Shown here: positions 15,396-22,720 of the stretch, in pieces
Position numbering within the stretch: the stretch's first letter is position 1
How the letters are laid out: every line of letters starts with the position of its first letter
Origin: a virus
Strand: one strand, 5' to 3'
IMG/VR virus record: IMGVR_UViG_3300042673_000124
Coordinates: 1 to 22,720 of that record
Length of the DNA: 22,720 bases
Position numbers and translations under genes: made by a program
The notes under the pieces: generated by a model
What the model was told of the DNA's origin: nothing
Seen by the model: only the letters and a program-made list of their open reading frames with translations
Database searches by the model: none

Positions 15396-16307
15396 ATGGG
15401 ACTAGAAACAGGAGCCATAATAGGTATATCAACAGCAATAGCAAGTGCAGGAGCATCTGCTGGACAGGCTGTAAGCGCAGGTCAAGCAGCTAGAAAAGCA
15501 TCAAGAACTGCTGAAGACGCATTTAATAAGGCGATGAATGAGTTGAGTGCAAATAGAATTGCAGGGCTCAGCCTACCAAGAGAAGCAATGGAGCGTCAGA
15601 TTGAGGCTAACCTATCGGCAGGAGCAGAGTTAACTCAAGCAGGAAGAGAAAGTGAGAGAGGTGCTGCGGCTATTGCAGGACAGGTATACAGAGGACAGAC
15701 TGAGGCTCAGAGAGAAATAGCTGGAGATATTGGCAAACAACTAATGGGTCTTGAAGCTGCAACTGCTGAGGAGGAGACAAGACTTGCTGGAGCTAGAGCT
15801 AATCTAAACTTGGCTGAGGCACAGGGAGCTCAACAAGCTGCTGCTCAGGCTGGTGCTCAGAGTGCTGCTGCTGTTAAAGGAATATTTACAGGGCTTGAAT
15901 CAGCAGGTCAGCAATACCTAGAAGCAAGTGAGTTATATAAATCTAGCGAGGGCGTTAAGCAATATGATAATTTGCTTAAGCAGTACGAGAAAGCCGCAGC
16001 AGATAAAACATTAAACAAACAATTTCTAGATCCTACTACAAATCAGCCTTTGCCATTTAATATGGTCATATCAAAACTAACAGGTAATAGAGATATCGCC
16101 AATAAGATAGGGTCAATGGATGCGTTGAATGCTAAAGATTATTTAATTAAAAGCCCGAACATAATTAATTCAATATCAGGAGATGTATTCTCAAGAGGAT
16201 ATGACCCGGGTATGGACATCTTAGCACCTAAAAGAAATTTGTCAAGTTCTTTAAATGCATTTTCAAATCCTTCTTTAGGATTTAATACAAACCCATTTGG
16301 AAATTAA
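15396..16307 (+). CDS. Probable internal virion / DNA-ejection protein (Ala-rich)
   Basis: A 303-residue protein with a composition typical of podoviral internal virion proteins. Residues 6-30 are a small-residue hydrophobic helix (GAIIGISTAIASAGASAG) that could insert into or cross a membrane. Residues 31-165 are a long Ala/Gln/Glu/Arg-rich helix (for example EAQGAQQAAAQAGAQSAA), probably a coiled coil. The C-terminal third is less regular and Asn/Ser/Leu-rich, ending SLGFNTNPFGN. It is followed by two further helical proteins of presumed internal location, the order seen for ejection proteins in T7-like and P22-like phages. Such proteins leave the capsid with the DNA and form a channel across the cell envelope. 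Its stop is 3 nt before the next ATG. Function is inferred from architecture and position, with no direct motif. Confidence 0.6.
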   Translation: MGLETGAIIGISTAIASAGASAGQAVSAGQAARKASRTAEDAFNKAMNELSANRIAGLSLPREAMERQIEANLSAGAELTQAGRESERGAAAIAGQVYRGQTEAQREIAGDIGKQLMGLEAATAEEETRLAGARANLNLAEAQGAQQAAAQAGAQSAAAVKGIFTGLESAGQQYLEASELYKSSEGVKQYDNLLKQYEKAAADKTLNKQFLDPTTNQPLPFNMVISKLTGNRDIANKIGSMDALNAKDYLIKSPNIINSISGDVFSRGYDPGMDILAPKRNLSSSLNAFSNPSLGFNTNPFGN

Positions 16308-16310
16308 GGA

Positions 16311-17786
16311 ATGGCTACATACTATAAATTTGCAGAAAGAGAAGCTGACAGTTTTGTAAACTGGGCAGAGATTGGTAAGGGCCTTACCGACATGCTTCAA
16401 GAGCAGATGAAAATCCGTGAGGATAAAAGAACTGCTATTGATAAGGTCACTAGAGAGAACCTAAAGAGTTTGTCTGAGGCACCTACTGGAGACCATACTA
16501 ATCTAAATACTTGGACTCTTGATTATGCGGACAATGCAAGACAGGCTATCCTGTTACAGGATAGACTACTAAAGTCTGGTGCTCTTAAATTAAAAGACTA
16601 CACTATCATGAGACAGAACCTAAACGATGGTACTGATGAGTTGTTTAGTGTGATTAAAAACTTTCAAACTGCATTCAAAGAGAAGAGAGACAGGATGATA
16701 AGTAATGACCCTGCTAATAAATCTCAAGCGTTTGAGATGGACTTGATGGCTTATACTGAGCAGTTTGGGGACTTCTCTAAATCAAAGGCTATGATTGATC
16801 CAAATAACTTTATGGTTAATATTGGTATCATGGAGCCTGACCCTGAAAACAAGGGGGTAATGAAGGTTGGTAAGCAGATTGCTCCATCTGGATTCCTAAA
16901 GAAGATTCAGAATACCAAGGTTGATTACTTTGATTCTAATGGTGCGGCTGAGGCTGCAAGTAAAAGTTTTGGTGGGTTTACTGAATCTACTATACAAAGT
17001 CTGAACAGACTACAGGGTAAGGTTGTAACGATTGATGATGTAAGGAAGAGACCTGGATACGAGGAGGCTCTTAATGAAGAGATTAATTCATTCTTCTCTA
17101 ATCCATTTAACATCACATCTGTACTTACTAACGACCTTGTTAAGGACAAGAATGGTAAGGCATACGTGTCAAATATATCAGGCAAGGAAGGCAATGTTAT
17201 TGAGTATGTGTTTGACCCTAAGACAAACTTTTATACGCCAAGGCTAACAGCGGAGCAAGAGCAGGCTGCTAGAGATTACATGAGACGTAAGATTGAGAGC
17301 AGACTTGATATAAAACTTAAGGAGGACCCATTCAATAAGCCACAGCCTAATGTAGGAAGACGTGAAGATGAGACACCTTCTAGTGGAGGTAACTATGCAG
17401 AAAGTGTTAATCAGTTTAAGACCAAATTAAAACAAGTTAAACCGAAAAGAGATAACTATATATTCACTGGTACTGGAGACGTAACAGTTGAAAACCTTCA
17501 AAATCTTTTGAGTTCTGATCCAGCATTAATAGGTAAGTTTAAAGTATCATCAGTAGATGATGTGGTAACAGTTACTGATAATGATGATGTTCTAATTGGT
17601 TCTTATGACTTGTCGAAAACAGATGCACGAAATAAAGGAACTGATTTTTTTAAGCAAAGAGAAAGATATCTAGATGACTTAATTAATCGAGTAACAAATT
17701 ATTCAATCTCTAAGGACCCAACAATTATTGGTGTATCTTTGATGACAGGACAACAGACAGGAGGGGCTTCACGATTTAATCCTTAA
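16311..17786 (+). CDS. Probable internal virion (cargo/ejection) protein
   Basis: A 491-residue, charged, mostly helical protein. The N-terminal YYKFAEREADSFVNWAEIGK (4-23) followed by the helix QEQMKIREDKRTAIDKVTRE is a pattern I recall from conserved proteins next to ejection proteins in aquatic Bacteroidota phages. Residues 60-165 continue as helices (DYADNARQAILLQDRLLKSG). Residues ~190-330 are mixed, and the C-terminal ~150 residues contain a small alpha/beta domain with VDDVVTVTDNDDVLIGSYDL. There is no signal peptide, membrane helix or catalytic signature. It stands between the Ala-rich probable ejection protein and the giant metallopeptidase-like protein with 3- and 2-nt gaps, so it probably belongs to the same set of proteins packaged inside the head. 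A scaffold-like or structural internal-core role is the main alternative. Confidence 0.55.
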   Translation: MATYYKFAEREADSFVNWAEIGKGLTDMLQEQMKIREDKRTAIDKVTRENLKSLSEAPTGDHTNLNTWTLDYADNARQAILLQDRLLKSGALKLKDYTIMRQNLNDGTDELFSVIKNFQTAFKEKRDRMISNDPANKSQAFEMDLMAYTEQFGDFSKSKAMIDPNNFMVNIGIMEPDPENKGVMKVGKQIAPSGFLKKIQNTKVDYFDSNGAAEAASKSFGGFTESTIQSLNRLQGKVVTIDDVRKRPGYEEALNEEINSFFSNPFNITSVLTNDLVKDKNGKAYVSNISGKEGNVIEYVFDPKTNFYTPRLTAEQEQAARDYMRRKIESRLDIKLKEDPFNKPQPNVGRREDETPSSGGNYAESVNQFKTKLKQVKPKRDNYIFTGTGDVTVENLQNLLSSDPALIGKFKVSSVDDVVTVTDNDDVLIGSYDLSKTDARNKGTDFFKQRERYLDDLINRVTNYSISKDPTIIGVSLMTGQQTGGASRFNP

Positions 17787-17788
17787 AA

Positions 17789-20700
17789 ATGAACGAACAG
17801 GCTTTAAATTATTCGTATGAACTATTCAAGAAAGATGGGTATACCGGAACACTTGATCAATACAAACAACTTATAAGTTCAGACAAACAAGCTCTTGATT
17901 ATTCATATAATCTTTTTAAGAATGATGGATACTCTGGCAGCGTAAATGATTTCAACCAACTGATTAGCCCTATGGCTGAAAAGCTAGTGGCATCTGAGCC
18001 TGTTGAGCCAGTAAAAAAAAAAGATACGGTATCACCATTTGTGGATGGTGGTTCGGGGCTTACAAACTTTGACCCACGTACTGGTCAAGTTGTACAGGAG
18101 ACTCCTGCCTTTGCACAAAAGCAACCTGAGGTAAAGTTACCTAAGCAGAAACTACCTGCACGTACTGAATTTCAATTTCAACCAGGGAAGGGATTGCCTG
18201 AACAGAAAACCGCTCCACTTCCTAAGTTTGTTGAGGAGCAGTTATCTGCTGTTAAACCAGAACTTATAGGTAAGACTGAGGAGAATGTTGTACCACAACT
18301 TAAGTATCAATTCGGTCCACTAGGATTTAAGTTTGAAGAAACTGGTGCTGGTGATTTTATGAAAGCCACATCTCCATCAGGAGAGTCTATTGAAATATCT
18401 TTGGATATAATTGACCCTGCTGATAGAGAAGTAGAAGCCAATAAACTAAACGCATTTTTAAGAAAGGGCACCACCGCTGTAAAGAACTTATCCACTTTAC
18501 AGAAGCAGTACACAGACGCTAATAAAAAGATTGTATCTCAGAAGGAACTTGATGAGTCTCTGGCAAGCATCAATGCAGAAGAGACAAAAATCTTGGCAAG
18601 AAATGCTGAGTTCGTTAAGACTCAGAATAAACTAGAGGCAGAGAAAGCACAACTAGAAAGTGTTCCTGTACAGCAAAGAAACAATCCGGAGTACATTGCT
18701 AGAGTAGATGACTTCATATCAAGAGCAGATCAGTTCAGTGGTGAATTCCAATCCTTTATAAAGGATGCTCAGGATTTGTCAAAGAGAGGTCAGCAATTGA
18801 ACAGGTCCATAGGCAAGTACACTGAGATGAAAGCTCAGCAGGGTACATGGTATGGTGCTGCTTTAAATGCCGTTGCTAATAAGTCAATCTACAATATGGC
18901 TAAAGGATTCTCTGGGCTTGCTATTGATTTCTTGGGAGAAGTAATACCAACTCAGGCTATAATGAGTCAGGATGATTACGAGAAAAACTTCATAGAGCAG
19001 GCTAAGAAAGAGGGTGTAGATATTGCTGAAGGAGAAGACTTCATATCAATCACTAGTAGACTAAGCCCTGAAACTATTGCTAATATAGAGAATAGGGTAC
19101 GAGATGTAGCAAAGAAAAGTGTAAAGGGAGAGATTATAGGTGGTTTAGATAAGGCTTCTAAGACGATTATGGAATCATCAGGGGTTTCTCCTGAGTATTA
19201 CAGGTCAATTGAAGAGACATTTGTTGGAGGCGCATTGCTTGGTGCATTGACATCTATACCGGCTATGGCTGGTGGACCAATCGCACGTACAGTATTGATG
19301 AGTTCTCAGGTATTGGCAGGACTGGATGATGAGATGGCTAATGATCCTGCATTTGCAGATGTGTCAGAGAATGAGAAGTTACTAGTTAAGGCTCCAATTG
19401 CAGTAGCTGTAGGTATACTTGAAAGTGTTGGTCTAAGTAACTTATTAAAGCAAAAAGGTTTCTTGAATGGATTAGTGCTTAAGGCATTAGGAAAGGTTGG
19501 GACAGGTGCTAGTTACAAGACATTTGGAGAAGTAATTAAGAATGAGATTGATAGCGCTATAGGCAGAGGAGCTTTAACTTTAGGGGCTGGTGTTTTAGCA
19601 GAAGTTGAAACAGGCGCATTACAAGAAGTTGCTGATATCACTGCCAAAGAAATTTACAACATGGCTAAGGAGAAGAAGATGTTTGATACTCCTGACTCTG
19701 TGGTACAATTTATTGAGCAAGTAGGTAAGGCTGGTCTACAGGAAGGTATTGGAGCAGGAGTACTTGCTGTACCTGGATCTATATCTGCCGCCTACAGAGG
19801 CAAGGGATTCTTAGGAATGGATGATGCTCAGTTTGCTATGTTCGAGAAGATGGCAAATGACTCAAACATTCAGAAGGGATTTATTGCTAGGCTTAAGTCT
19901 AGAATTAATGCTGGAGAGATTACTTCTGCTGAAGGTAAAGACATCTTAAATAACTATAGAAACTCTATTAGTTTATTCAACTCGTTGCCTGATAACCTTG
20001 ACATGAAAGGTAAGAAGGAGGCGATGAACTTGCTAAAGGAGAAGCGTGAATTGGAGCGTCAGATTGATGGCAAGGATCAAGCATTGACAGTTCCTCAAAG
20101 AAATAGAGTAAACGAAATAAATCAACAACTTACTAAACTATCAGAAGATGCCGTTCAAAAGCAAGCAGCAGGTGAAGTACCTGTACAGCCAGGAACCAGA
20201 GTTAGCCAAGAAATGGCGCAAGGAGAACCCCAAGCAGAACCTCAAGGCGTTACCCAAGAAGGTCAAGAAAAAATAAATGAGATTGAGAGAAGAAGACAAG
20301 AGGAACTGAGCACTTACGATGAAGAAGGTCTTAATGAAGTTTATGAAGTAGGTAGCGATCAAACTGTAGGAGAGTTTATAAATGCCAAGTATGATGCGGA
20401 ACTAGCAGCATTAGAACAACCTACTCAGGAGGTAGATGTAGAAGGAGAAGTATCAAGACTTGAGCAACTATTTGCAGAGCAAGAGACTGCTCCTACCGTA
20501 TCTGCTGGTATATCAATATCAAATGATGCTGATGTAGAGGAGTTAAGAAATAGAACTAAGTCAAAATCTCAGCAGGCCACAACACAAGAAGAGAAAGAAT
20601 CTTCTAGCACAAGATTAAAGATTATTGACACAGCGAAGAAGGCTATCAAAACATTGAAGTCTGTATTCCCTGATATTGATATTGTAATCCATGATGATGA

Positions 20701-22720
20701 GGGTAGTTATAATGCTGCAATGGCAGACATGGATGGAGCATCTGGAACTAGAGGCAACTTCTCTTATGAGACTACTCCTGATGGTAAGACAACAGGAAGG
20801 ATTGACATAAATCTATCCAGAGCTAACTCTAGAACAGTAGCTCATGAGGTTGCTCATGGTATACTATTTAAGACATTTGGAGAGAACGTAAACTTATTCA
20901 ATGACTTTAGAACAAGACTATCCAAGGTACTTAAGGGTGATGCAAATAAGAAACTAAATGATTTTGCTGCTAAGTATGTTGACCCTGTTACAGGACAACT
21001 ACTAGATGTAAACCATGAGGAGTTCTTGGCTGAGTTAACTGGTATGTTAGAGCAGCAGGAGACAAGCGTATCTGTAAGTACAATGCAGAAAGTTGCTGCG
21101 TTGATTAATGAGTTTGTGTCTAAGATTACAGGTGGCAAGTTCAAACCATTTGAGGATACTAAGAATACCAAGGACGTAGTTGACTTCTTCAATACTATCT
21201 CTGGTGCTATCAGAGAGGGCAGTGAGATACAGCAACTAAATAGTCAAGAGCCATACTCTTCAGGTGTAGCAATACCTGTAAGTAATCCTCAAGAATTTGT
21301 TGGTAAGAAGTTTAAATCTCAGGTTGATATAGGTGATTATAAATTCCCATCTGGAATAGATATCCTAACAATAGCAGACTTACCTATAAAGACTTTAACT
21401 GAATTAGTTAGACAGTATGAAGGCAGAGTATTAATCATTACAAGTGATGCCACTGGGTATGGTGTAGATAAGAATGGAGACGCAATCCTTGGTGGTTTTG
21501 GGTTTGCTTCAAACAAAAAGAATGTTGATGATGGTATTGGATTTGCAAGTGTTAGTACTGGAACAGTAAGAGGAACTTATACAGCAGCTGAGAAAGCATA
21601 TGGTACAGGGAAGACTCTTGTGCTAGTAATGATTCAGCCTCCACATACTACTATCAATAACTCTTATGGTGCTAAGTACATTATCAGAGGGCTAAAAGAA
21701 ATAGCCGCATCTTCTAAGGAAGAGTTAGCAAAAACTAAGGATGCCATTAAGAGTTTTATAAAAGGCTCTAAGGCTATTCAAAATGAATTGAAGAATGATC
21801 AGGCTGCTTTGAAGAGAGGATCAGAGAAGAGATTATTTGACTTGATTGATAGCATAGATGAGAATACCAATTTAGAAGAAGCAGTTAAAGAGTTTCTTAA
21901 TGACACTACTTTTACAATAAGAAAGGAACTTGGTAAAGGTATAATCCTTGAGAATAAAAATATAAGAACAAACAAGTCTACTAACTATAGTAAGATTGCA
22001 CTTAACAATGTTGGGTACAACATATATGATTTCCTTAAGGAGTACGGAGACAATACATTCTTGACAGATGATTTAATTCTAAATAATACTGGAGGGTATG
22101 TGGTTGGTGGATTTGAATTAGATGTACTTCCAAAAGAACAGAGAGAGACTTTAATAAATGACATACAAGGAAGTGGTATAGTACATCCATTGTTTAATGC
22201 AAAACTTCCTGGAACAAATCATTTTAGACTTGATGGCCTATACGATGTTCAAGAAAACTTTTCTGAATATGCTAAGCCTGACACAGAAATTTCTTTATCA
22301 AAAGAAGAAAGAGATGCTTTGGTAAGAGAGATTTACAAGGATGATAAGTTTTATAAGGCAGAGGCTAGATTAATTCCTTTAGATAAAAGATCATATACCA
22401 ATCTAACTGTTCCAGCTAAGACTGAATTTAAGGATAAGTATTTAAAACAAAGAGGGTTACTTACAGAGGCCACACCAAATGTGCCTACTAAAGTTGCCAA
22501 AGGAGAAGGGTTTATCCCTAGAGAAGGTGCCGCTGAACAAATGGCGAAGAGAGACTTTGTAAGCAGAACTCAGGATGAAGCTACGCCAAAATCTAAAAGG
22601 GTATCTAAGTCTCAGATAATTGGAGAGAATGCTCAACTTGAAGCTGTAGTAAGACATGATTTAGGTGTTGCTAAAATTCTATCTAGAGAAGGATTGCTAC
22701 CACAAAGAACTAAACTCATT
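17789..22720 (+). CDS. Giant polyvalent internal virion protein with metallopeptidase domain (3' end outside window)
   Basis: An open frame of 1644 codons that runs off the window, so the true length is larger. Residues 5-64 are two tandem 30-residue repeats (ALNYSYELFKKDGYTG / ALDYSYNLFKNDGYSG). Residues ~65-210 are Pro/Lys/Gln-rich linker, and ~260-300 is a coiled coil. Residues ~475-665 hold several Gly/Ala-rich hydrophobic segments (for example FVGGALLGALTSIPAMAGG at 478-496), candidates for membrane insertion. Residues ~745-850 are a charged coiled coil and Gln/Glu-rich linker. Residues ~938-1150 look like a zinc metallopeptidase: HEVAH at 1019-1023, then HEEFLAEL at 1076-1083 supplying a possible third Glu ligand. 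Residues ~1166-1500 (IITSDATGYG, GGFGF, GIGFASVSTG, VLVMIQPPH) resemble a conserved domain of giant phage proteins with no known activity. The protein is probably packaged, ejected and multifunctional; its substrate is unknown. Confidence 0.8.
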   Translation, partial: MNEQALNYSYELFKKDGYTGTLDQYKQLISSDKQALDYSYNLFKNDGYSGSVNDFNQLISPMAEKLVASEPVEPVKKKDTVSPFVDGGSGLTNFDPRTGQVVQETPAFAQKQPEVKLPKQKLPARTEFQFQPGKGLPEQKTAPLPKFVEEQLSAVKPELIGKTEENVVPQLKYQFGPLGFKFEETGAGDFMKATSPSGESIEISLDIIDPADREVEANKLNAFLRKGTTAVKNLSTLQKQYTDANKKIVSQKELDESLASINAEETKILARNAEFVKTQNKLEAEKAQLESVPVQQRNNPEYIARVDDFISRADQFSGEFQSFIKDAQDLSKRGQQLNRSIGKYTEMKAQQGTWYGAALNAVANKSIYNMAKGFSGLAIDFLGEVIPTQAIMSQDDYEKNFIEQAKKEGVDIAEGEDFISITSRLSPETIANIENRVRDVAKKSVKGEIIGGLDKASKTIMESSGVSPEYYRSIEETFVGGALLGALTSIPAMAGGPIARTVLMSSQVLAGLDDEMANDPAFADVSENEKLLVKAPIAVAVGILESVGLSNLLKQKGFLNGLVLKALGKVGTGASYKTFGEVIKNEIDSAIGRGALTLGAGVLAEVETGALQEVADITAKEIYNMAKEKKMFDTPDSVVQFIEQVGKAGLQEGIGAGVLAVPGSISAAYRGKGFLGMDDAQFAMFEKMANDSNIQKGFIARLKSRINAGEITSAEGKDILNNYRNSISLFNSLPDNLDMKGKKEAMNLLKEKRELERQIDGKDQALTVPQRNRVNEINQQLTKLSEDAVQKQAAGEVPVQPGTRVSQEMAQGEPQAEPQGVTQEGQEKINEIERRRQEELSTYDEEGLNEVYEVGSDQTVGEFINAKYDAELAALEQPTQEVDVEGEVSRLEQLFAEQETAPTVSAGISISNDADVEELRNRTKSKSQQATTQEEKESSSTRLKIIDTAKKAIKTLKSVFPDIDIVIHDDEGSYNAAMADMDGASGTRGNFSYETTPDGKTTGRIDINLSRANSRTVAHEVAHGILFKTFGENVNLFNDFRTRLSKVLKGDANKKLNDFAAKYVDPVTGQLLDVNHEEFLAELTGMLEQQETSVSVSTMQKVAALINEFVSKITGGKFKPFEDTKNTKDVVDFFNTISGAIREGSEIQQLNSQEPYSSGVAIPVSNPQEFVGKKFKSQVDIGDYKFPSGIDILTIADLPIKTLTELVRQYEGRVLIITSDATGYGVDKNGDAILGGFGFASNKKNVDDGIGFASVSTGTVRGTYTAAEKAYGTGKTLVLVMIQPPHTTINNSYGAKYIIRGLKEIAASSKEELAKTKDAIKSFIKGSKAIQNELKNDQAALKRGSEKRLFDLIDSIDENTNLEEAVKEFLNDTTFTIRKELGKGIILENKNIRTNKSTNYSKIALNNVGYNIYDFLKEYGDNTFLTDDLILNNTGGYVVGGFELDVLPKEQRETLINDIQGSGIVHPLFNAKLPGTNHFRLDGLYDVQENFSEYAKPDTEISLSKEERDALVREIYKDDKFYKAEARLIPLDKRSYTNLTVPAKTEFKDKYLKQRGLLTEATPNVPTKVAKGEGFIPREGAAEQMAKRDFVSRTQDEATPKSKRVSKSQIIGENAQLEAVVRHDLGVAKILSREGLLPQRTKLI
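17801..17980 (+). repeat. Tandem 90-nt coding repeat at the start of the giant gene
   Basis: Two adjacent 30-codon units, 17801-17890 and 17891-17980, encode homologous segments with 16 identical residues in the first 26 aligned (core Y-S-Y-x-L-F-K-x-D-G-Y-x-G ... Q-L-I-S). The DNA has diverged, so this is an old duplication kept by selection on the protein. Confidence 0.8.

Follow-up and report, generated by a model that had tools for sequence, protein, structure and literature searches.

A giant polyvalent phage protein with a zincin-like domain and candidate cleavage motifs at its module borders

The window analysed here, 22,720 nucleotides of IMG/VR virus record IMGVR_UViG_3300042673_000124, encodes about the first half of a giant protein which, by its domain content, is a phage polyvalent protein of the kind described in 2017 (PMC5512222). 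Several unrelated domains are combined in one chain: a zincin-like domain (MPT1), an uncharacterised module (U), LPD23 and a second HExxH domain. Short R-x-Q-like motifs, referred to below as seams, are present at module borders of this protein and its relatives. We propose that the giant is an ejected chain of effectors and that MPT1 would release modules by cutting its own giant at the seams; we regard the chances of this reading as evenly balanced. Its more specific form is put forward tentatively, at somewhat worse than even chances: an ejected effector polyprotein with almost no cysteine, in which an internal zincin would free exchangeable modules in the host at R-x-Q-like seams, with seam and peptidase co-evolving by lineage.

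The giant gene and its neighbours

The open reading frame on the plus strand runs for 1644 codons without a stop and reaches the end of the contig, in agreement with a previous sequence-only reading of this DNA, which had reported a frame of at least that length and proposed to extend the contig. The extension was provided by a 61,230-bp contig, IMGVR_UViG_3300042887_000389 (L002), which matches the frame over 4932 nt with 0 mismatches. The stop codon read in L002 gives a full giant of 3234 aa, and LPD23 and the second HExxH domain were added at the same time. The order of elements is: repeats (residues 1-62), hydrophobic region (478-691), MPT1 (935-1148), U (1175-1595), LPD23 (1612-1664), HEIQH at about 1737 and a long C-terminal chassis (Table 1). 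LPD23 was matched by Pfam profile PF18838 with an E-value of 1.4e-7 and 31.6 bits against a cut-off of 27. The HEIQH motif, at residue 1737, belongs to a peptidase-like domain past the end of the window. The profile of the C-terminal chassis matched eight close relatives and no others in the set searched; iteration made the profiles of the linker, C1 and MPT2 drift (to coiled coils or HExxH), and no claim is based on them.

The repeats noticed previously were borne out as two N-terminal units of about 31 aa. Their profile matches again at residues 2244-2293 of the L002 protein, within the C-terminal chassis, and several relatives behave likewise. The hydrophobic region reported earlier stands as a recurrent Gly/Ala-rich region, though not as one classical transmembrane helix: only residues 531-553, approximately, passed a strict hydropathy cut. 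At 660-718, a sub-threshold Pfam match to Col-Pyo_DNase (E 0.0084) was dismissed as a chance match to the hydrophobic region.

Table 1. Features of the window discussed in the text (residue numbers refer to the giant)
Feature	Coordinates	Strand	Basis
Muzzle-type tail protein, PF25731 crAss_MUZ, 20 Cys in 1487 aa	8490..12953	+	Pfam; phage-type marker, Cys contrast
Small gene of block, 303 aa, 0 Cys	15396..16307	+	phrog_13764
Medium gene of block, 491 aa, 0 Cys	16311..17786	+	Cys count, gene order
Giant polyvalent protein, residues 1-1644 of 3234	17789..22720	+	ORF reading; completed by the identical contig L002
Tandem repeat at the N-terminus, two units of ~31 aa, residues 1-62	17789..17974	+	Repeat profile matched in 18 giants
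Gly/Ala-rich hydrophobic region, residues 478-691, candidate membrane-interacting segment	19220..19861	+	Profile matched in 38 giants, lowest E 1e-86
MPT1, predicted zincin-like metallopeptidase domain, residues 935-1148	20591..21232	+	Profile/alignment; AF2 pLDDT 77.6, pTM 0.74
HEVAH motif (H1019, E1020, H1023), model helix 1016-1032	20843..20857	+	Invariant in relatives; AF2 model
E1077, E1078, E1082, third-zinc-ligand candidates, model helix 1076-1089	21017..21034	+	Invariant in 51-58 sequences; AF2 model
Seam motif 1, FKSQV, residues 1175-1179, between MPT1 and U	21311..21325	+	Motif search
U, uncharacterised module, residues 1175-1595, exchanged for others in relatives	21311..22573	+	Module comparison; low-confidence model
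Seam motif 2, VSRTQ, residues 1591-1595	22559..22573	+	Motif search
Seam motif 3, VSKSQI, residues 1605-1610, LPD23 module start	22601..22618	+	Motif search
LPD23 start (PF18838, residues 1612-1664 in L002)	22622..22720	+	Pfam match; HEIQH domain beyond window

Terminase, portal, capsid and tail genes were found upstream of the giant, which is thus encoded among late virion genes. Judged by its genes, the window comes from a podophage with a crAss-type muzzle. Related muzzle genes occur in isolates that infect Flavobacterium, Cellulophaga, Tenacibaculum and Maribacter, and the hosts of the window phage are probably Bacteroidetes bacteria. A 136-aa gene at 14984-15394 matches phrog_17252; its syntenic counterpart in MW202828 bears the annotation of an N-acetyltransferase subunit.

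The giant closes a small-medium-giant gene block that is nearly free of cysteine, and has none in its own 3234 residues. Giants of the first family set contain 14 cysteines in 193,916 residues, compared with 1247 in 133,448 (0.93%) for the other open reading frames of the same loci, and the genes of about 500 and 250 aa just upstream of the giants have none, with rare exceptions. An alignment of the medium gene showed no conserved stretches that would suit it as a scan query. Cysteine is likewise absent from T7 gp15 and gp16 and from N4 gp50-52, and crAss001 has two in gp45, none in gp46 and one each in gp47 and gp49. For N4-like vRNAP the absence of cysteine has been published and tied to injection (PMC3915230). 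Several syntenic giants of isolated phages are annotated, as deposited, as 'structural protein'. This annotation and the cysteine depletion common to known ejected proteins support the earlier placement of the giant as the last in a run of ejection-type genes. It is likely that the giant is packed in the virion and ejected into the host, with cysteine depletion taken as a correlate of ejection.

MPT1, an exchangeable zincin-like domain

The HEVAH motif at residues 1019-1023 and the HEEFLAEL sequence starting 53 residues later were both found at the positions noted previously. As only 0.004 HExxH motifs are expected by composition in the full giant, and H1019, E1020, H1023, E1077, E1078 and E1082 showed no variation across alignments of 51-58 relatives, HEVAH is not a chance match. 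The AlphaFold model of MPT1 (56 sequences; Table 1) has the order helix-strand-helix-strand-strand-HExxH helix-Glu helix, which is zincin-like. H1019, E1020 and H1023, whose position on one active-site helix was a prediction of the sequence-only reading, are all located on a single model helix. The Thr-Val-Ala stretch previously taken for a strand-like lead appears in the model as the first turn of that helix, and the preceding strand is formed by residues 1001-1008. MPT1 is probably a zincin-like metallopeptidase: residue conservation and the order of fold elements are observed, and activity is predicted from them. Together with the LPD23 match above the Pfam cut-off, these data favour the previously suggested peptidase inside a polyvalent-type giant.

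Similarity to described peptidases is low. Foldseek searches with two models gave no match in the PDB at E <= 0.001; SprT-like viral models showed weak fold similarity (E 0.1-0.3, prob 0.85-0.93), and weak sequence similarity to IrrE was seen around the HExxH motif (E 0.029). It is known that IrrE cleaves a repressor. With similarities this weak, the gluzincin type suggested by the sequence-only reading is a candidate assignment. No match of MPT1 above cut-off was obtained in Pfam, NCBIfam or PHROG. When genome contigs were searched with a profile of the MPT1 alignment, no copy in bacteria came up, so that no link to a host is provided.

No HExxH was found in the syntenic giants of phi19:3, phi38:1 and Panino, and those of Gundel_1, MW202828 and L154-L157 have motifs of the HEFGH or HEFAH type (HEFGH in Gundel_1 and MW202828); the isolate giants were matched by gene order, and homology beyond MPT1 was seen only for the N-terminal repeat in MW202828. 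In four relatives that share the C-terminal chassis, the place of the HEVAH-type MPT1 is taken by HEFGH or HEFAH. By these comparisons MPT1 is an accessory module, missing from syntenic giants or replaced in them by another HExxH type. In Maribacter phage Panino (L102) a tRNA gene cluster and a tmRNA adjoin the giant gene at 30190-32953.

The modules swapped beside MPT1 on one chassis are U, LPD23 with the second peptidase-like domain, a methyltransferase-like module (weak Pfam match) and Kinase-PolyVal. The last of these, PF18762, was found in the close relative L007 at protein residues 617-751, upstream of MPT1; an ART-like FHGG stretch follows it, as judged by eye. The structure model of U was too uncertain for a classification.

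Motifs at module borders and their interpretation

A V/I-S-K/R-S/T/A-Q motif is present at module borders in the clade of the window. De novo scans of individual giants gave other flavours in other lineages, namely PISKAQ in L025, APRQQ in L043 and PRKQ in L071. The pattern counted over the family was R[FKRQ]Q. The seams of the window giant, of K-S-Q and S-R-T-Q type, are kin of this pattern and not the pattern itself; the two are linked solely because both sit at module borders.

Of the 69 non-redundant giants that carry MPT1, 24 have R[FKRQ]Q at 5-45 residues after this domain, against 1.6 expected; when 361 gapped pairs were ranked over the 40 residues that follow MPT1, R.Q came first. Over whole proteins the same giants contain 151 copies versus 63.3 expected; the corresponding numbers for 24 giants without MPT1 are 23 and 21.4. 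A held-out set of 23 giants, non-redundant with respect to the first set though not phylogenetically separate from it, gave 12 with the motif after MPT1 (0.7 expected); the motif had been noticed post hoc before this test. For the combined 92 giants the count at +5-45 was 36 against 1.1 expected (32-fold), falling to 0 against 4.4 at +100-260 and rising to 42 against 3.7 at +300-440. Binomial P values for such counts are optimistic, since relatives were treated as independent.

Four different modules (A-D) follow MPT1, with a recognisable seam in 58 of 76 cases; about a quarter are without one. In giants sharing a chassis, S[KR][SA]Q precedes it in L002, L005, L009, L010, L020 and L022 (and in L008) and is absent in four relatives with another HExxH type, although this comparison is small. 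Seam copies are encoded by different codons, indicating that conservation is at the protein level and ruling out a DNA-level repeat as their origin.

The placement of the seams suggests that MPT1 cuts its own protein, which accounts for the motif evidence most economically. The sequence-only reading had left the target of the peptidase open between a host defence protein, an envelope component and the protein itself; the seam motif tilts the choice towards the giant rather than a host protein. In the mechanism that we propose, the giant would be the cargo that a podophage with a crAss-type muzzle encodes in a three-gene ejection block almost devoid of cysteine. Packaged in the virion, it would exit via the tail, unfolded at least in part, and its entry into the host may be helped by the hydrophobic region, by analogy with N4, T7 and crAss001. 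MPT1 would then cut this chain of effector modules just after itself and at later module borders, freeing the adjacent module and those that follow; this step is suggested by motif placement, the lack of enrichment in giants without MPT1 and the held-out test. The freed modules (U and LPD23 with the second peptidase-like domain; in relatives, kinase or methyltransferase-like modules) would have the host as their target in early infection.

Besides the modules that have no recognisable seam, the post hoc origin of the motif, the kinship of the giants, the small same-chassis comparison and the failure to find a significant PDB fold match, two observations count against cutting at the seams. The profiles of modules A-D were matched only next to MPT1, so that the motif could belong to an MPT1-module unit and not mark a cut site, and N4 vRNAP, which has an MPTase of its own, is reported to be packaged unprocessed (PMC5512222). 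Because modules A-D were found only directly after MPT1, motif and domain may also share ancestry. The seam could accordingly be a structural or host-protease-sensitive linker travelling with such units, its lineage flavours being inherited and MPT1 having no role in processing. We consider this improbable, as one and the same motif stands ahead of modules that look unrelated (A-D, U and LPD23) and appears again 300-700 residues further on. Somewhat less improbable, though still unlikely, is that MPT1 is itself an effector of the ejected protein, directed at host proteins such as a defence protein or a regulator, with the seams serving only as flexible joints. The accessory status of MPT1 among syntenic giants fits exchangeable effectors, and the weak similarity to IrrE near HExxH points in the same direction; this explanation nevertheless leaves unaccounted for an R-x-Q enrichment found solely in giants with MPT1 and at a spacing of one module.

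The remaining alternatives concern the virion. Processing of P1 DdrB before packaging (PMC5512222) provides a precedent for MPT1 as an essential protease of virion assembly or maturation, but we give this very little credence because isolates with a related muzzle gene have syntenic giants without HExxH. It is equally hard to credit that the giant is a scaffold or tail component and is not ejected: the case for its presence in the virion is indirect, yet its cysteine depletion is that of known ejected proteins and unlike the cysteine-containing muzzle of the same genome.

Comparison with known systems

The T7 core proteins gp14-gp15-gp16 have the same gene order and size gradient as the block described here, and gp15 and gp16 share its lack of cysteine; no sequence relation was seen, however, and where the window giant has polyvalent modules, T7 gp16 has a lytic (endolysin-type) domain. 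The N4 vRNAP operon (gp52-gp51-gp50) is similar in its small-medium-giant order and in its giant of 3500 aa, which is cysteine-free, packaged and injected, and contains an MPTase. It differs in that an RNA polymerase module was not detected in the window giant, and in the reported packaging of the N4 protein in unprocessed form. In crAss001, gp45-gp46-gp47 are cargo genes that follow the muzzle gene and are low in cysteine, and the packaged cargo has been proposed to traverse the tail partly unfolded (PMC10172136); gp47, unlike the window giant, is annotated as RNA-polymerase-related and not as a polyvalent effector. Lack of cysteine offers a simple way to recognise ejected cargo from sequence in phages that have not been cultured.

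Elemovirus gp21 (NC_055852; L012; 3694 aa), from a cultured relative that grows on Flavobacterium sp. BAL314, has a homologous MPT1 with HEIFH, no cysteine and the same position, after cysteine-free genes of about 200 and 450 aa. Its tblastn match is 25.5% over residues 898-1386. It differs in chassis and modules, among them DUF3293, found above the Pfam cut-off at residues 1323-1392. A literature search for proteomics on the elemovirus giant found no paper.

The closest precedent is the class of polyvalent proteins with zincin-like MPTases described by Iyer et al. in 2017 (PMC5512222), where 12 MPTase clades were distinguished and both ejection and autoproteolytic release by the zincin domain were proposed. 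The earlier suggestion of an undescribed takeover system is not supported in that form, since both this class of protein and processing by an MPTase had been put forward in 2017. The window giant resembles these proteins as a very large multidomain chain encoded with late virion genes, in having LPD23 and, in a relative, a kinase module, in its HExxH zincin-like MPTase with a later Glu helix, and in having more than one peptidase-like domain per chain. When the main text of that paper was searched, neither a named cleavage site for zincin self-processing nor the recurrent R-x-Q-like seams seen at module borders of the window family were found. To the 2017 proposal this would add a candidate cleavage site that is associated with one clade of peptidases. 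The seam motif gives the idea of self-processing a concrete site, and would help to delimit effector modules in many unannotated giants.
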